NCBI GenBank assembly: GCA_012799935.1
Contig: JAAZKG010000048.1
Span: 1-39,617 of the forward strand
DNA: 39,617 nucleotides
Source: Erysipelotrichia bacterium
Lineage (GTDB): Bacteria > Bacillota_I > Bacilli_A > Erysipelotrichales > Erysipelotrichaceae
Direction: 5' to 3'
Shown: positions 7,840-17,902 of the stretch, one piece after another
How the letters are laid out: each line of letters starts with the position of its first letter
How positions within the stretch are numbered: position 1 is the stretch's first letter
Program-made: the position numbers and the translations under genes
Notes under the pieces: model-generated
The model's input: only the letters and a program-made list of their open reading frames with translations
Database searches by the model: none
Told to the model about the DNA's origin: nothing

Positions 7840-7913
7840 ATGAAATAAGGATATGCATTTTAAATCAATGTTGTAAACTAATTTATTTATATACATCAAT
7901 TAATCTGATATTG

Positions 7914-7919
7914 TATAAT
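7914..7919 (+). promoter_or_regulatory. Candidate -10 box (TATAAT) for the TIR gene, 6 nt before its ATG
   Basis: TATAAT at 7914-7919, ATG at 7926; no good -35 at 17-nt spacing (atacat). Confidence 0.5.
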
Positions 7920-7925
7920 ATAACC

Positions 7926-10900
7926 ATGAAATCATACAAATATAGTGCCTTTATTTCTTATCGTCATGAAAGTCCAGATCAAGAAATAGCACAGAAACTG
8001 CATTCAATAATTGAAAACTATCACATACCATCTCCACTTAAAGAAACCTTAGGTGTTTCTAAAATGGGTAGAGTTTTTCGCGATCAAGAAGAATTACAAC
8101 TTTCATCAGATTTAGGTGAAGAAATTCGTGCAGCGCTTAGAGATTCTCAGTGGTTGATATGCATTTGTTCGCCAAGATATTTAAAATCAAAATGGTGTCT
8201 TGAAGAACTGGATTATTTCATCTCTTTAGGTAGAAGAGATCATATCTTAGCCATTCTTGTAGAAAAAGAACCAATAGATTCTTTTCCTTATTCTTTACGC
8301 TATGAAATAATTGATGGTGTTCAAGTAGAAAGAGAACCTTTAGCCGCTGATGTAAGAGCAACTTCAATACAAGAATCTATTAAAAAACTTAATAACGAGA
8401 AACTAAGAATACTGGCTCCAATGCTTGGGGTTAATTATGATGATTTAAAGCAAAGAGATCGTATAAGAAAAAATAAGATTATGTTGATTACTATCGCTTG
8501 TGCTTTTATTTTGCTAGCGAGTTTTTTGACATACGTAATTGTTAAAAATAAACAAATCACCAATGAAAGAAACAGTGCCTTAATAGCTGAATCAAAATGG
8601 CTGGCCCAATCAGCTAATGAGGCACTGGATAATGGCAATAAAAATCTATCATTATTATTATCGCTTGAAGCCTTGCCAAAAGATGGCAACAATCCAGATA
8701 GGCCAATTGTTGATGAAGCAGTAAGTGCACTTTATAATGCCTTGATTTATGGTGCTAATGACCAGTATTCAGCAATATATGATATTAATATGCCTTATAC
8801 AAAATATATAGGATTATTGGATTATCTGGCAATTAAAAATGGAGATGAAATACTATTCTATAATAAAACAGATGGAAAACTTAATCCTGATGCTGATGTA
8901 GGGGATTTAATGTATAAAGTATCTTTTAATGAGATGACTTACAAAGAGAAGGCAGAAAAAGATTACAATAGTTTAAGCGATGAAGAAAAAAGGGTACTTG
9001 GACTTGATAGTTATTTTTCAATTCATAATATTTATCGTGGTGAAAATGAACTGTCAACAATCAAAGCTTATAGTACAATATATTTAGCAATTAATAGTGA
9101 CAATAAATTATATCTTTATGATTCCAAATTGATTCGTCATACATATTCAGTTGATTTAGCGCAATATCGAGATGATGGATTTTTTAAATATACTTGGTAT
9201 GACTTTAGTGTTCCAAATGAAGAAATGGCAATTTATATTGATTCATCAGCAGATGGAAATTATATCGTATCGGTTTATAGCCCTTATGTTGTTATTTGGG
9301 ATACTGCAAGTGAAAAAATAAACAATATTCTTTTTTATCCTGATTTCGATAAGGGATATTTTAAAAATATAAATATTGATCCACAAAAACCCATTTTGGG
9401 AATTCTTACTAAGTCGGGTAATGTTTTTATTTATGATATTGACAATAAGAAAACTATTTGCTGTATGGATAATCAGTCAATTCCTTTGGATGGTTTTTAT
9501 TTCAATGTGGATGGAACGAAGATATTAGCCTATTCAACAGCGAAAAACACGATTATGTTATTTAATGCTAATACAGGTGAACTTTTGCAAAAACTCAATG
9601 TTGATTTCAATTTGGAAAGTGCACAATATTTTTGTATAGATGGTTATGGAAATGCAACTAGAGATGATTATATTGTTGCCAGCGGAAAAAATATTATCCG
9701 TGTTTATATGGCTGGAAATTCATCTTCGATGGAGATCATTACTTCGCTAAAGGAAACAAATGCGAGAACTCACGATAATTTTACTACCTTATCTTTAAGT
9801 GGAGAAACAGTCTTTACTTACACTACCACAACTTCCTTTAACAAATATTTATGTGTTAATGATGCAAAAACCGGAAAGGTGTTACACAGATATGATATAC
9901 CAGTCTTTATAAATCAAACTGTAAGCCTTGGACATAATGAAGTATTTGTTTTTGGAACCAATAATCTTTCAAAAGAAGCAGAAGATGAATATGCAGTAAC
10001 AAAAGTATTTAATGGCAGCAGTGGAGAATTTATAGAAACTATTACCTTCATTCCAGATTTTAATGGAGATGGCAAGGCTGATGAAGGAACTGTAAAAACT
10101 TATGAGTGTAAAAATATATCATATTCCAAACAAGTAGATGCGTTGATTGCTGAAGTGCATAAATATATTGATAATAAATACATCGATTCACTTTTCATAT
10201 TAGATGGGAAAAGTCATGAATTGTTATGGAATATATCTGCAAACCTCAGTAAACATGAATTTGAATTTGATGAAAATGAATATGAAGTAGTTGGTCTGGG
10301 TTATCAATTAATTCATGATGGAAATGATATGTTGATTATATATCGATGTAAAAAGAAAGATGCACCTAGTTATACTTCAGAAGGAATAATGGGTGTAGAA
10401 ATAAGAAATGTTAGGACAGGACAGTGTAAGAGTGCCTATACTTTAAATATAGAATATTTGCTTAATATTGAATATAATTTTGTATATTTTGTAGATGAAG
10501 AAAACGGCTTACTATATACAAGAAAAATAAATATAAGCAAAAATAAAGAGGATGATTTAAATAGTTTTTATGATTTATATAGTGGAGATTTAAAAGGGCA
10601 AATAGGTTATTATGAATATATTGAATTATATAATAATAAATTTTCCAAAGAAAAATATTGGTTGTTTGGAAATCATCGTGTTAGAGCTAAAGACAATATA
10701 GTCTATGATATTGACAGTAATGAAGTAGTACTAAAATTTCAAAATAATATTAAGATTCTTTCTTCATCTGAAAATGGTGAAGCGTTAGAAATTATGTATA
10801 CTGGCATTGATAAATTCAGTAGTACTTGTTATGTTGTTCATCATACTGATCTTAATACCATGATTTTTTCAGCAAACGAAATGCTTAATGGCAGAGAACT

Positions 10901-10937
10901 AACTTTAGAAGAGAAAAAGAGATATTTCTTAGAATAA
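7926..10937 (+). CDS. TIR-domain transmembrane protein with C-terminal beta-propeller-like ectodomain
   Basis: ORF track gives 7911 (TTG); ATG at 7926 is a better start. N-terminal YSAFISYRHE...FRDQEELQLSSDLGEEIRAAL...SPRYLKSKWCLEEL TIR motifs; TM IMLITIACAFILLASFLTYVIV; then LAQSANEALDNGNKNLSLLLSLEALP and repeated beta-rich segments. Confidence 0.85.
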   Translation: MKSYKYSAFISYRHESPDQEIAQKLHSIIENYHIPSPLKETLGVSKMGRVFRDQEELQLSSDLGEEIRAALRDSQWLICICSPRYLKSKWCLEELDYFISLGRRDHILAILVEKEPIDSFPYSLRYEIIDGVQVEREPLAADVRATSIQESIKKLNNEKLRILAPMLGVNYDDLKQRDRIRKNKIMLITIACAFILLASFLTYVIVKNKQITNERNSALIAESKWLAQSANEALDNGNKNLSLLLSLEALPKDGNNPDRPIVDEAVSALYNALIYGANDQYSAIYDINMPYTKYIGLLDYLAIKNGDEILFYNKTDGKLNPDADVGDLMYKVSFNEMTYKEKAEKDYNSLSDEEKRVLGLDSYFSIHNIYRGENELSTIKAYSTIYLAINSDNKLYLYDSKLIRHTYSVDLAQYRDDGFFKYTWYDFSVPNEEMAIYIDSSADGNYIVSVYSPYVVIWDTASEKINNILFYPDFDKGYFKNINIDPQKPILGILTKSGNVFIYDIDNKKTICCMDNQSIPLDGFYFNVDGTKILAYSTAKNTIMLFNANTGELLQKLNVDFNLESAQYFCIDGYGNATRDDYIVASGKNIIRVYMAGNSSSMEIITSLKETNARTHDNFTTLSLSGETVFTYTTTTSFNKYLCVNDAKTGKVLHRYDIPVFINQTVSLGHNEVFVFGTNNLSKEAEDEYAVTKVFNGSSGEFIETITFIPDFNGDGKADEGTVKTYECKNISYSKQVDALIAEVHKYIDNKYIDSLFILDGKSHELLWNISANLSKHEFEFDENEYEVVGLGYQLIHDGNDMLIIYRCKKKDAPSYTSEGIMGVEIRNVRTGQCKSAYTLNIEYLLNIEYNFVYFVDEENGLLYTRKINISKNKEDDLNSFYDLYSGDLKGQIGYYEYIELYNNKFSKEKYWLFGNHRVRAKDNIVYDIDSNEVVLKFQNNIKILSSSENGEALEIMYTGIDKFSSTCYVVHHTDLNTMIFSANEMLNGRELTLEEKKRYFLE

Positions 10938-11083: not shown

Positions 11084-11141
11084 TTAAAAAAAGAGTTTAA
11101 ATAATATGATTTTTTAATTTTATGGATAAACTCTTTTTTAA
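11084..11141. terminator. Bidirectional terminator-like hairpin between convergent genes
   Basis: ttaaaaaaagagttta ... taaactcttttttaa inverted repeat with flanking A/T tracts. Confidence 0.75.
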
Positions 11142-11156
11142 TGATTTTAAATTTTC

Positions 11157-11999
11157 TTATTTTGATAATTCTACAACCCAGTCTTTACCTTCTTTTATGT
11201 GATAGGTATCTTTAAAACTATTTTGATTTAAACCAATAGAAATATAATTACTACTAGAATTAAACAAGACAGGTTTATTTAAATCAACATAACCAAATGA
11301 TTTTTCATATGGAACATCTTCTTCAAAATAAACTTTATCATTATGACTAATTTTAACGTGAACAATATCACCATGATTATAGCCAATTTTAATGAAATCT
11401 TTAGTTAAGATGTTAAAAACTATTGAACCAAAAGGGTCTAATACACTGATAATAATTCCTTTAATGTCAGTGCTTTTAACAGTTGCTTTTACATATTCAT
11501 AATCTTCAACAATAATTTCATTTACTGGGTAAATAGGACCAACTTCTTCAAAAGAGATAATTGAGCTAGCAAGTCTAGCAGCTGTATAAGCAAATATATC
11601 ACGACCATGAAACACTGAAACATCTTCAGTTCCTTTATATCTATTGATGGTTGTGTCAATTTCCCTTACTTCTTCAATACCTACTTCATAATAAACATGA
11701 GTTAAAGTTCCATTATCAGGAGTAATTACATAATTACCATCTTTTAATTTAGCAACACAAGCTTTTCTTTTAGTTCCAACACCTGGATCAACAACACTTA
11801 CAAAGATAGTGCCTTTAGGCCAAAATGGCACAACAAATGCTAATTCTCTAGAAGCAGCAAGAATATTAAATTGTTCAATATCATGAGTTATATCAAAACA
11901 CTCTAATTCACTATCTATTTGTTTAACAACACCACGCATGGTGTTTACTGCTCCCCAAGTTAAACTAAAATCGGTTTGCCATACAATGCTTGGTTTCAT
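11157..11999 (-). CDS. SAM hydrolase / SAM hydroxide adenosyltransferase family (DUF62), paralog 1
   Basis: FVVPFWPKGTIFVSVVDPGVGTKRKACVA...PDNGTLTHV...FHGRDIFAYTAARLA; start taken at ATG 11999, which overlaps the upstream stop as ATGA. Confidence 0.9.
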   Translation of the reverse strand: MKPSIVWQTDFSLTWGAVNTMRGVVKQIDSELECFDITHDIEQFNILAASRELAFVVPFWPKGTIFVSVVDPGVGTKRKACVAKLKDGNYVITPDNGTLTHVYYEVGIEEVREIDTTINRYKGTEDVSVFHGRDIFAYTAARLASSIISFEEVGPIYPVNEIIVEDYEYVKATVKSTDIKGIIISVLDPFGSIVFNILTKDFIKIGYNHGDIVHVKISHNDKVYFEEDVPYEKSFGYVDLNKPVLFNSSSNYISIGLNQNSFKDTYHIKEGKDWVVELSK

Positions 12000-12841
12000 T
12001 TGGTAAATACTACTTTCCAATCTTTTCCAGCAGAGTTGATATCGTATTTTTCTGCAAAACTAGCTTGATTTAATGCTAAGCAAATATCCAACATAGAACC
12101 ACTGAAGATAATAGGTTGATTAAGACTTGCATAACCAAAGGATTTATGAAACAACACTTTTTCATTAAATTTAACTTCATCTTTGTAAGTTATCTTGACA
12201 TTGACGTAGTCTCCTTCAACAAATCCAGCTTTTTTAAAATCTTTATAAGTGATATTTGTAAAAACATTTCCAAAATGTTTGAAGATAATAATAATATTTC
12301 CTTCAACATGATTTTCCTTGATAATAGGATTGTAAAAAGTGTCATGTAAAACAACTTCATCAACTGGATAAGCAGGACCAACCTCTTCAAAGGTAATAAC
12401 ATTAGCTGCTAATTTGGCAGCGCAATAAGCAAACAAGTCACGACCATGGAAAATTGAAGTGTCTCTAGTTGATGGAAGTCGATTAACTGTTTCATCAATT
12501 TCTCTTATTTCTTCAATCCCAATTTCATAATAAACGTGAGTTAAAGTACCATTATCTGGAGTAACAATATAGTTGCCATCTTTTAATTTAGCAACACAAG
12601 CTCTTCTTTTGGTTCCAACACCTGGATCAACAACACTTACAAAGATAGTGCCTTTAGGCCAAAATGGAACAACAAACTTAAGTTGAGAGCTAGCTTCCCA
12701 AGTGTTAAATGGGGTAACTGAATGAGTAATGTCAGTAGTAATTAAATCAGAACAAATATTGCTGCAGACACCTTTCATAGTACAAACACTACTATTGTCT
12801 GGTCCAAAATCTGTCATCATACAAATAGTTGGATATTTCAT
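11996..12841 (-). CDS. SAM hydrolase / SAM hydroxide adenosyltransferase family (DUF62), paralog 2
   Basis: MMTDFGPD...SVVDPGVGTKRRA...PDNGTLTHV...FHGRDLFAYCAAKLA; start at ATG 12841 after ggaggtgttt, ATGA overlap with EcfT stop. Confidence 0.9.
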   Translation of the reverse strand: MKYPTICMMTDFGPDNSSVCTMKGVCSNICSDLITTDITHSVTPFNTWEASSQLKFVVPFWPKGTIFVSVVDPGVGTKRRACVAKLKDGNYIVTPDNGTLTHVYYEIGIEEIREIDETVNRLPSTRDTSIFHGRDLFAYCAAKLAANVITFEEVGPAYPVDEVVLHDTFYNPIIKENHVEGNIIIIFKHFGNVFTNITYKDFKKAGFVEGDYVNVKITYKDEVKFNEKVLFHKSFGYASLNQPIIFSGSMLDICLALNQASFAEKYDINSAGKDWKVVFTK

Positions 12842-13695
12842 AAACACCTCCAATATATCCACATCTTAGGCACACGCGGAGTGATAAACCCAGAGATAAT
12901 ATAGTAAGCACAGAATAGTGCAATTAAACAATAAATTAATTTAAATATTTTGTCGTTTCTTCTTTCAGGATATTCAGAATAATACGATCTTTTCTTTCCT
13001 TTGCCAAAACCTCTTAAATCCATAGCATTAGAAATATTACCCACTCTATCAAAAGAAGTGACAATTAAAGGAATTAAGATTATAACCATTTGTTTCAAAC
13101 GCTCTATAGGCTTGGTTTTTTTAGCATCCAACTCCAAACCTCTACACTGCATTGAAACTGCAATATTCTCATAATCTCTTGAGATATCAGGAATATATCT
13201 AAAAGCAATTTCTACAATACTACCAAGTTTGTAAGGAAACCCTATATTAGTTAAACCAGCAGCTAATTCACTAGGAGTGATAGACATAATAAAAGCTAAT
13301 GAGGTAGAAAAAGCAGTTAACATCTTTAATAGTCTAATTGACAAAAACCAAAGAGTTCCTCTAGTAACAATAAGATAGTCTGTATAAGCAAATAAAATTG
13401 TTTGGTCACCAGTATATTCTAACCCGCAAAGTGGATTAGCTAACCAATACAATACAATATTAAGAACATTCAAGAAAACAACAAAAAAGATTAATGGTTG
13501 AATTGTTTTCCAGTGTGGTTTTAAAGAAATTATACTGATGATTGAAAAAACAAATAGTGGTAGAATTATAGGCAAATCAAAAGACATCATAACGTAAACC
13601 ATCAAAACAGCAAATAATCTAACCTTGGTAGTACCAGTAAGTTGATGTAGGAAAGTTTCTCCTTTTGTCAAATTAATAATATTAAGATTTTTCAT
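12838..13695 (-). CDS. ECF transporter transmembrane T component (EcfT/CbiQ family)
   Basis: Multi-TM; AVSMQCRGLELDAKK and NAMDLRGFGKGKKR coupling-helix motifs; start at 13695 preceded by gaaaggag. Confidence 0.88.
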   Translation of the reverse strand: MKNLNIINLTKGETFLHQLTGTTKVRLFAVLMVYVMMSFDLPIILPLFVFSIISIISLKPHWKTIQPLIFFVVFLNVLNIVLYWLANPLCGLEYTGDQTILFAYTDYLIVTRGTLWFLSIRLLKMLTAFSTSLAFIMSITPSELAAGLTNIGFPYKLGSIVEIAFRYIPDISRDYENIAVSMQCRGLELDAKKTKPIERLKQMVIILIPLIVTSFDRVGNISNAMDLRGFGKGKKRSYYSEYPERRNDKIFKLIYCLIALFCAYYIISGFITPRVPKMWIYWRCL

Positions 13696-15394
13696 GACGT
13701 TTTCTCCTTTCTGATACAATAAATGATTCAATGAAACTCTCAGGATTAATACCTAATCTAGTAGCTAAAGAGTATAAAGAGGTCTGTTTTAAACTAGCTC
13801 GTTCAATAATATCATTATCAGACAATATTTTAAATACTGAATCATCACCAATACATTTGCCGTCAGCAAAAACAATAGCTCTATCAGTATATTCAATTGC
13901 TAAATGCATATCATGAGTAATAAATAGTATGGTAATACCAAAATCCTTATTCAGTTTTTCCAAGAAAGACATTATTTCAGTATATACTCGATAATCTTGA
14001 CCAGCAGTAGGTTCATCTAAAATAATAATTTCCGGATTCATAGCTAAAATAGATGCAATAGTTACTCTTTTCTTTTGCCCATAACTGACAACAGAAACAG
14101 GCCAATTTCTCATCGGCCAAAGATCACATTTTTTAAGTGCTTCCTCAATATTTTTTTCGATTTCTTCTTCAGATTTATTATTAAGAACTAAACCTAAAGA
14201 AACTTCATCTTTGATGATATCTTTAACTAGCATTTGGTTAGGATTTTGCATTACATATCCTATCTTCTGCCCTAATTCTTTAATAGAATAGTTTAGATAA
14301 TTAACGCCTTCTAAATGAACTTCACCTTTATCAGGACGAAGAATACCACAAATTAGTTTAGCCATTGTTGATTTTCCTGCCCCATTTTTACCAATTACTG
14401 CAATTTTATCGCCTTTATTAATAGAAAATGATACATTATCCAATGCTTTGTTTTTATCATAAGAAAAATCAACATTTTTAACATTTAAAACAACTTTTTT
14501 TTCTTTGTAAGGCTTACTAGTATCAACATTACTATAGTAAGATACCAATTTTTCTTTATATTTATCCAATTTTATATCAAATATATTACTCGGATTATCA
14601 TCAATAGTAACATTACAGCCTGCCATCTTTAAGGCTTGTAAGTAAAGGGGTTCTCTAATTCCTTTTTCAACTATGATATTTGAACAGAGAAGCTCATTAG
14701 GTTTCATATCTGCAATAATTTGACCATCTTCTAATAGAATAATTCTATCAACTGGACGATATAAAACATCTTCTAAACGATGTTCAATAATTATAACAGT
14801 ACAGTTATTATTTTTTTGAATTTTATCAATTAAATCGATAGCTTGATTACCCATTTGAGGATCAAGAGCAGCTAAGGGTTCATCGAAAAGAAGAATTTTA
14901 ACATGCTCATGCATAATACCAGCTAAAGAAACGCGTTGTTTTTGTCCGCCAGAAAGATTATAAGGAACATGTTCTAAGAACTCTTGCATACCAACAAGAG
15001 TTGCAGAATTCAATACACGTGGAAGCATTTCTTCTCGTGGCATGTTATCGTTTTCCAGTGCATAGGCAATATCTCCTCCGACAGACAAACCAACAAATTG
15101 GGCATCAGAATCTTGAAGTACTGTGCCAACAACAGAACTCAAACTAAAAATGCTAGAATGCGATGTTTCATTTCCAGCAATTTTACAAGATCCATGAATT
15201 TCGCCTGGATATGAGAAGGGAATTAAGCCATTAATACAATTGGCTAGAGTGCTTTTCCCACAACCACTAGGTCCTAAAATAAGCACTTTTTCCCCCTCAT
15301 ATATTGTTAAGTTTATGTTTTTTAAAGTTGGTTCAAGTTGAGATTTATATTTAAACGTGAAATCTTTAAATTCAACAATAGGCGATTTTGACAT
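13682..15394 (-). CDS. ECF transporter ATPase, two fused ABC domains (EcfA-EcfA', YkoD-like architecture)
   Basis: Two Walker A motifs (GPSGCGKST, GKNGAGKST), signatures LSGGQKQR and VSYGQKKR, two Walker B (ILLFDEPLAALD, IIILDEPTAG). Confidence 0.93.
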   Translation of the reverse strand: MSKSPIVEFKDFTFKYKSQLEPTLKNINLTIYEGEKVLILGPSGCGKSTLANCINGLIPFSYPGEIHGSCKIAGNETSHSSIFSLSSVVGTVLQDSDAQFVGLSVGGDIAYALENDNMPREEMLPRVLNSATLVGMQEFLEHVPYNLSGGQKQRVSLAGIMHEHVKILLFDEPLAALDPQMGNQAIDLIDKIQKNNNCTVIIIEHRLEDVLYRPVDRIILLEDGQIIADMKPNELLCSNIIVEKGIREPLYLQALKMAGCNVTIDDNPSNIFDIKLDKYKEKLVSYYSNVDTSKPYKEKKVVLNVKNVDFSYDKNKALDNVSFSINKGDKIAVIGKNGAGKSTMAKLICGILRPDKGEVHLEGVNYLNYSIKELGQKIGYVMQNPNQMLVKDIIKDEVSLGLVLNNKSEEEIEKNIEEALKKCDLWPMRNWPVSVVSYGQKKRVTIASILAMNPEIIILDEPTAGQDYRVYTEIMSFLEKLNKDFGITILFITHDMHLAIEYTDRAIVFADGKCIGDDSVFKILSDNDIIERASLKQTSLYSLATRLGINPESFIESFIVSERRKRHEKS

Positions 15395-15395
15395 A

Positions 15396-15974
15396 TTATT
15401 CTTTTGTTAAGTTAGTGCCACGAGCATTTCTAGCTGCTAAAGCTTTTAAGATAGGGATACCAGCTACAAGTAATACAGTTGAGTTAGAAACTGCAGCAAC
15501 CCAACCTTGAGCAATAGAGATTTCTAATTCTCCACCAAAAATTAATTTTGTGAAGATTGGAGTAACAAAGCCAAATGCCAAGACATTACCTAATACAGCT
15601 AAAATAGCATAGATAACCATATGTTTAACATCGAAAACTCCTTCATCAATATTAGCACCGTAAAGTTTTAAACTACCTACAATAAATCCTAACAATGCAT
15701 TACCAATTGACCAGTCAAACCAGAACCCCCAGCCACCAATTAAGTCAGCTAAAACGTTTCCTAAACCACATGCTAGCGCAGCTGGCAGTGGTCCAAATAA
15801 ACCACCAACGATAATAGGAACAAGCATAGCTAAAGACAAGTTAGTGTTTGTGAATACAGTAATTGATCCATAAACCATTAATACCGCAAATAAAGCAATA
15901 CCAATAGCTACACCAACAATAGTTTTAGTGTCCCATTTTCCCAATAGAATTTTTCCAAAACTTTCTTTTTTCAT
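15396..15974 (-). CDS. ECF transporter substrate-binding S component (UPF0397 / ECF-ribofla_trS-like)
   Basis: TKTIVGVAIGIALFAVLMVYGSITVFTNTNLSLAMLVPIIVGGLFGPLPAALACGLGNVLADLIGGWGFWFDWSIGNALLGFIVGS; hydrophobic, adjacent to A and T. Confidence 0.82.
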   Translation of the reverse strand: MKKESFGKILLGKWDTKTIVGVAIGIALFAVLMVYGSITVFTNTNLSLAMLVPIIVGGLFGPLPAALACGLGNVLADLIGGWGFWFDWSIGNALLGFIVGSLKLYGANIDEGVFDVKHMVIYAILAVLGNVLAFGFVTPIFTKLIFGGELEISIAQGWVAAVSNSTVLLVAGIPILKALAARNARGTNLTKE

Positions 15975-16096
15975 TTTTTCTCCTTTTCTCCTTTTCTATT
16001 TTTCTTGCAATATCTAAAACACAAAAGTGTTATTGCCTAAAATATAAAACAGCATCCACAAAGGATGCCATTTAATAAACAAACATCTTCCCTTAT
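15975..16096 (-). promoter_or_regulatory. Structured 5' leader of the ECF operon (candidate riboregulator)
   Basis: Predicted TSS ~16096; hairpins GCATCC-tttgt-GGATGC (16068-16052) followed by tgttttatatttt, and GCAATAACAC-tttt-GTGTtttagaTATTGC (16036-16007). Confidence 0.4.
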
Positions 16097-16102
16097 GGGT
16101 TT

Positions 16103-16131
16103 ATTTTATTGAGTAAATCTTTTTATGTCAA
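16103..16131 (-). promoter_or_regulatory. Consensus sigma-A-type promoter for the ECF/SAM hydrolase operon
   Basis: Minus strand TTGACA (16131-16126), 17-nt spacer, TAAAAT (16108-16103). Confidence 0.8.
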
Positions 16132-17409: not shown

Positions 17410-17432
17410 GAAGTTGCTAGACTTCCTTTTTT
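17408..17432. terminator. Terminator-like hairpin shared by convergent divIC and NADAR genes
   Basis: AGGAAGT-tgctag-ACTTCCTTTTTT, overlapping both stop codons. Confidence 0.7.
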
Positions 17433-17902
17433 AATGTATCTCTTACTTCCATTAAGGTAAAACCATGTAAGTTAAGACCATCCCATCTTGAAAGGTTATA
17501 AAGTCTAGTATCACCATAATTTAAACCAGAGCCCCAGACTTTATCAGTTTTGCCACATTTAACTAAAACAATATCTTCAGTAGCTAAAAGTAAATTTTTT
17601 AAATCGTTATTTTGAGAAAATTTTGCGTAGTTAGCTTTATAAAGGTTAATATGTCTTCGAGCATTCCAAACTTTATCAACATAATTAACAACCCCTTTAC
17701 TATATTGCATAATCTCTTTTCTATCTACAGCATTTAAAAGTTTATCAGCACGATAATTATCATTAAACATCAGGGCTTTGCGATATTGTAGATATTGTTC
17801 CACACACCAAAATTTATATCCATCAATAAAAAAACTGCAAGGATACCAAACACTTAGATAACCATTTTCTTCTTCAACTTTTTCAAAACAGATAACTTTC
17901 AT
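17417..17902 (-). CDS. NADAR (YbiA-like) domain protein
   Basis: GYLSVWYPCSFFIDGYKFWCVEQYLQYRKALMF...DKVWGSGLNYGDTRLYNLSRWDGLNLHGFTLMEVRDTL matches the NADAR fold pattern. Confidence 0.82.
   Translation of the reverse strand: MKVICFEKVEEENGYLSVWYPCSFFIDGYKFWCVEQYLQYRKALMFNDNYRADKLLNAVDRKEIMQYSKGVVNYVDKVWNARRHINLYKANYAKFSQNNDLKNLLLATEDIVLVKCGKTDKVWGSGLNYGDTRLYNLSRWDGLNLHGFTLMEVRDTLKKEV

Follow-up and report, generated by a model that had tools for sequence, protein, structure and literature searches.

We propose that an operon of an Erysipelotrichia bacterium encodes an ECF importer for SAM, or for an adenosyl-methionine compound very close to it, that works together with SAM hydrolases of the DUF62 family in the cytosol. 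From comparison of the genes and their relatives we judge the chances of this reading to be evenly balanced. Three lines of evidence point to methionine or SAM, and not to a vitamin: SAM-I riboswitches and Met-specific T-boxes that precede S in relatives, adjacency of metK or metNIQ in several genomes, and hosts in which metK was undetected. DUF62 SAM hydrolases are widespread but their cellular role is unclear, and a conserved transporter operon gives them a testable context. If the proposal is true, SAM would be added to the known ECF transporter ligands, the family now called 'riboflavin transporter' would have to be renamed, and a set of anaerobes, those of gut and rumen among them, would probably rely on SAM from outside.

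The window, i.e. the whole stretch of DNA analyzed, comprises 39,617 nucleotides (contig JAAZKG010000048.1). The operon and its control elements lie on its minus strand:

16967-16128, minus: third DUF62 gene, clade 'c', located 5' of S (PF01887 and PF20257; triad D-R-H)
16103-16131, minus: candidate sigma-70 promoter of the S operon (TTGACA-17-TAAAAT, 11/12 matches)
15975-16096, minus: leader RNA before S, attenuator-like, conserved in same-genus relatives
16047-16073, minus: terminator-like hairpin in the leader, 11 pairs with a T-rich tail
15974-15396, minus: S component, 192 aa, ECF S of the UPF0397/PRK13661 family, PF07155
15394-13682, minus: AA, 570 aa, fused double ABC ATPase with DUF3744
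13695-12838, minus: T component, CbiQ-like, ATG start, 14-nt overlap with AA
12841-11996, minus: DUF62 'b', ATGA overlap with T
11999-11157, minus: DUF62 'a', ATGA overlap with DUF62 'b'
11086-11136, minus: probable terminator, weak and A+T-rich (AAAGAGTTTA ... TAAACTCTTTTTTT)

An earlier, sequence-only reading had described the order S-AA-T-DUF62-DUF62 at 15974-11157 on the minus strand, with a 14-nt A/T overlap and two ATGA overlaps, and all of these were recovered. The overlaps are counted from ATG starts; T, DUF62 'b' and DUF62 'a' also have longer in-frame ORFs with TTG or GTG starts. Stoichiometric co-expression is a possible reading of the gene overlaps. The unit is wider than 11157-15974, since the third DUF62 gene and the 153-nt intergenic leader belong to it. 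DUF62 'a' and 'b' are 56% identical. The probable terminator was read directly off the sequence, and a terminator scan that requires G+C pairs gave no call at 11086-11136. Two further genes lie close to the operon. A 1008-aa protein at 7911-10937 (plus strand) adjoins it and has WD40-like repeats and an N-terminal TIR domain, with weak similarity to Thoeris TIR models. At 17417-17902 (minus strand) a NADAR-family protein of the riboflavin biosynthesis intermediates N-glycosidase type is encoded (TIGR02464, above cut-off).

An S-component fold, a CbiQ-type T protein and a pair of ABC ATPase domains, all encoded in one operon, support assignment of S-AA-T to the ECF transporters by family membership, with ATP-driven uptake of a micronutrient as the predicted activity. 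An AF2 model of S (pLDDT 90.5) displayed the S-component fold, and a Foldseek comparison with FolT, BioY and ThiT gave a probability of 1.00. The nearest solved relatives are FolT, BioY, PanT and ThiT at a TM of ~0.6. Since these matches are only remote, the ligand of S is not readable from the fold. The motif GGWGFWFDW (residues 80-88 of the window S) is invariant or nearly so across 46 S proteins, and a patch of aromatic and acidic residues like this would be compatible with a positively charged ligand.

All three DUF62 proteins of the window contain the SAM_HAT_N and SAM_HAT_C domains above the Pfam cut-offs and carry the D-R-H triad of PH0463. The D-x6-R and FHGRD motifs previously claimed for every copy are indeed present in all three. 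As SAM hydroxide adenosyltransferase homologs they are predicted to hydrolyze SAM to methionine and adenosine. The reaction described for the family is that of SAM with water to give methionine and adenosine, one DUF62 protein is reported to prefer (R,S)-SAM, and the described reactions require a sulfonium leaving group (PMC10491745). Against the (R)-SAM hydrolase equivalogs NF053629 and NF058624 the window copies scored 98-148 bits, below the 350-470 cut-offs. Among relatives the Asp and Arg were invariant in 116 of 116 copies, and 17 copies had Tyr, Asp or Asn in place of the triad His. The FHGRD His is Asp in L040, L041, L085, L086, L090 and L172-L174, and Tyr in L044, L045, L048, L064, L170 and L183. 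These replacements suggest altered chemistry in some paralogs. The idea that one paralog is catalytically dead, as a sign of a heteromer, was rejected because Asp and Arg are invariant and His is replaced only sporadically. Judged from leaf order in the tree, the DUF62 proteins form distinct old clades, and operons with a DUF62 pair usually combine one member of clade 'c' with one of another clade.

The variable His would also allow a system that imports a different adenosyl sulfur compound, such as methylthioadenosine, S-adenosylhomocysteine or a natural SAM analog, for cleavage by DUF62 or a variant of it. We consider this unlikely, in part because of the sulfonium requirement of the described reactions (PMC10491745).

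The association of S with DUF62 is recurrent. In 148 genomes of the order both occurred together in 42 of the 43 genomes with S and 42 of the 46 with DUF62 (p=4.3e-31, nominal because the genomes are related), and 40 of 44 S genes lay within 9 kb of a DUF62 gene. A scan of genome contigs gave an independent collection of 68 S loci, from records labeled Erysipelotrichaceae, Lachnospiraceae, Oscillospiraceae, Christensenellaceae, Treponema, Brevinematales, Thermoclostridium caenicola and Anaerotruncus massiliensis. DUF62 was part of the same-strand cluster in 41 of the 45 loci whose sequence continues for more than 6.2 kb downstream of S. Clustering on this scale greatly exceeds what chance would give, so the lack of recurrence named earlier as an outcome that would overturn the proposed link between transporter and enzymes was not what the neighborhoods showed.

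The commonest order among relatives, most of which carry M20, is S-AA-T-M20-DUF62-DUF62, in which M20 is a PepV/Sapep-type dipeptidase encoded between T and DUF62. In five loci (L060, L084, L085, L086, L090) an N-formylglutamate amidohydrolase-like gene (FGase-like, PF05013) takes the position of M20 after T. A second amide hydrolase at this position hints at an amide-containing substrate, and together the two types of gene suggest that the substrate is conjugated or that methionine is scavenged more widely. The chief argument for an importer of methionine or a conjugate (N-formyl- or N-acyl-methionine, or a Met dipeptide) comes from these genes: the M20 or FGase-like enzyme would free methionine from the conjugate, and DUF62 would independently turn the cell's own SAM back into methionine whenever charged Met-tRNA runs low. 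This is a possibility to be taken seriously, although on balance we find it doubtful. The clade of the window, with the order DUF62-S-AA-T-DUF62-DUF62, has no M20 in the operon, which counts against a methionine importer of this kind. Other neighbors were single cases only (DeoD in L096, an aminotransferase, EamA, CorA and others). Neither nucleosidase nor methylthioribose genes recurred beside the operon in the neighbor surveys of relatives, which argues against uptake of other adenosyl sulfur compounds.

The regulatory elements in front of S were compared across the loci. A SAM-I riboswitch lies directly 5' of S in eight loci: L064, L077, L080, L081, L083, L097, G135 (L222) and G100 (L228). 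A simple S-box pattern search over whole loci matched L030 only, and Rfam was needed for the rest. A Met-specific T-box lies directly 5' of S in another set of eight. It scored at or above the Rfam cut-off in G083, G037 and G035, just below it in G089 (L041; 90 vs 93 bits), and was recognized by sequence in L040, L043, L051 and L072. In all eight the specifier is AUG (by eye in L051 and L072). Its position was checked on T-boxes of the same genomes, which gave CAC for HisZ, GUA for ValS, UAC for TyrS, AUC for IleS (two), UCC for SerS, CUC for LeuS and AUG for MetN (two); these control genes were identified by our own reading of their sequences.

Because both regulators respond to a shortage of SAM or methionine, the operon should supply SAM or methionine. 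Methionine metabolism also appears among the neighbors. In L064, L081 and L097 metQ-metN-metI precedes S and is itself preceded by a T-box, and metNIQ lies beside S in G117 and G135. G101 has the order metK-S-AA-T-DUF62-DUF62, with the end of metK 7 nt before S, and G120 has the DUF62 pair, a SAM-I riboswitch and metK in succession. The identity of these metK genes rests on HMM matches at those places and a TSESITEGHPDK-type motif. The T-boxes and nearby metNIQ genes would suit uptake of methionine as such, but several of these genomes already have metNIQ for methionine, and SAM-I control would turn on a SAM-destroying enzyme when SAM is low. For an importer of other adenosyl sulfur compounds the regulators and neighbors would fit too.

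The same regulators bear on two further explanations. The first is that S belongs to a transporter of riboflavin or another vitamin, with DUF62 as a chance neighbor. This follows the NCBI family name, as the window S scored 122.4 bits against NF010182 'ECF-type riboflavin transporter', above the 99-bit cut-off. It conflicts with a DUF62 linkage beyond chance and with regulators that sense SAM or Met-tRNA. An FMN or TPP riboswitch was not found in front of the UPF0397 S gene in any locus scanned, FMN being the usual though not strictly required genomic mark, and the FMN riboswitch in G016 and G022 belongs to another S gene, which it precedes, near the operon. Riboflavin or thiamin specificity was rejected on these grounds, and the vitamin ligand that the sequence-only reading had kept in view now looks very improbable. 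The second explanation is that the operon serves detoxification by clearing an alkylated or halogenated adenosine compound, an idea to which the halogenases among the DUF62 relatives lend some plausibility. We give it hardly any credence. There is little sense in taking up a toxin only to break it down, both regulators switch the genes on when methionine or SAM is short, and the enrichment in metK-less genomes described below does not fit. Of the two roles offered before, salvage and detoxification, the former survives as SAM or methionine acquisition and the latter is disfavored.

The leader of the window itself gave no match in an Rfam search of the window, so that neither a SAM nor a Met element was recognized there. 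In the genus of the window the leader has a AATAAACCCATAAGGG...GTTTATT stem followed by the terminator-like hairpin ahead of S, and one compensatory pair change in this hairpin was seen between same-genus relatives. It looks like an attenuator or a small riboswitch without an Rfam family. The candidate promoter is the best in its region, where the total of promoter-like sites is at chance level. Its TTGACA, at the end of the DUF62 gene, is also present in L033 and L034. A different leader motif, ATTCTRCATG...CATGTGGGAGATAGAT, is common to the Lachnospiraceae loci L044, L045, L046, L048, L050, L057 and L067 at ~100 nt 5' of S. It had no Rfam match in the loci scanned and is a candidate for an unrecognized regulatory RNA.

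The third line of evidence concerns SAM synthetase. In draft MAGs of the window genome and two genus mates (99% and 95% complete) metK (PF02772) was not found, and the same holds for eight more draft MAGs with S and DUF62 (G016, G026, G089, G098, G100, G129, G135, G145). In these 11 genomes PF02773 gave nothing above cut-off and the archaeal PF01941 was absent, whereas the SAM-dependent methyltransferase RsmH was kept in 11 of 11. For genomes treated as ≥90% complete, metK was missing from 10 of 40 with the module as compared to 3 of 101 without it (nominal p=2e-4). Two of these three, G041 and G062 (98-99% complete), yielded no metK, S or RsmH candidate and hardly any for other families. The search probably could not read these genomes, and they should for that reason be left out of absence counts; dropping them changes the non-module figure to 1 of 99 (nominal p=1.4e-5). 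Five small genomes of another family (0.7-0.9 Mb) contain S-AA-T and neither DUF62 nor metK. MetK is strongly diverged in G006, G110 and G117 and in L217 and L218, with E ~1e-23 on PF02772 vs ~1e-40 to 1e-54 elsewhere.

Three metK-less genomes (G100, G135, G145) have a SAM-I riboswitch on S. With SAM synthetase missing, low SAM would be correctable only by uptake or by an unknown route. A methionine importer would leave the enrichment of the module in metK-less genomes unexplained, as methionine cannot become SAM there, and other adenosyl sulfur compounds would not replace metK either. The possibility that DUF62 acts in reverse as a SAM synthase, replacing MetK in such hosts, was set aside on thermodynamic grounds, the formation of SAM from adenosine and methionine being strongly uphill.

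Under the SAM-import reading, S would bind SAM or a close adenosyl-methionine compound outside the cell and AA-T would power its entry. SAM fits as the imported compound because the importer is coupled to enzymes with a described reaction of SAM with water. On part of what is imported, DUF62 would direct water to the ribose C5' and so give methionine and adenosine. Hydrolyzing good SAM during SAM shortage would be wasteful, and a preference for (R,S)-SAM would resolve this by clearing the bad epimer and keeping the good one. The likeliest use would accordingly be removal of (R,S)-SAM, the biologically useless epimer that accumulates in extracellular SAM, with recovery of methionine and with (S,S)-SAM left for methylation. 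Hosts lacking metK, including the genus of the window, would have the importer as their source of SAM. That such a lineage lives on ECF-imported SAM, with DUF62 as stereochemical quality control against the (R) epimer that recovers methionine and adenosine, we put forward tentatively. We infer the ligand, the reaction and the epimer preference in this scheme. The earlier suggestion that enzymes and transporter share a substrate thus gains from recurrence, SAM-I and Met T-box control in relatives, metK and metNIQ adjacency and undetected metK where SAM-related compounds are concerned, but adenosine as the main substrate found no specific support. Several observations count against the SAM model. 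SAM alone does not account for the M20 dipeptidase or FGase-like enzyme that is common among relatives, the leader of the window is without a known SAM or Met element, two other genera outside the order have S-AA-T without DUF62, metK is present in 31 of the 42 genomes with the module, and the DUF62 proteins score below the (R)-SAM hydrolase cut-offs.

The window operon resembles ECF transporters with a dedicated operon in that S, two ABC domains and T are encoded together and S has the S-component fold. The solved relatives bind folate, biotin, pantothenate or thiamin, whereas this operon includes predicted SAM hydrolases and is of a type under SAM or Met control in relatives. By HMM the window S belongs to the UPF0397/NF010182 family, for which the riboflavin name is unsupported here. 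Early comparative genomics reportedly predicted methionine-related ECF groups, and a SAM-regulated group may be among these predictions; if that group is UPF0397, what is new here narrows to the link with DUF62 and the absence of metK. Searches of the open-access literature gave no paper tying ECF transporters or UPF0397 to DUF62 or SAM uptake. With the PH0463-type DUF62 proteins and (R)-SAM hydrolases the window copies share both SAM_HAT domains, the triad and full-length homology; they differ in falling below the equivalog cut-offs and in occurring as two or three copies tied to a transporter. Rickettsia takes up SAM by an EamA-type carrier, and its metK is decaying in most species (PMC5615194). 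There, too, an importer is proposed as the SAM supply where metK is lost or dispensable (PMC5615194). The EamA protein is a secondary carrier of intracellular parasites, whereas the window system would be an ATP-driven ECF transporter with its own hydrolases.
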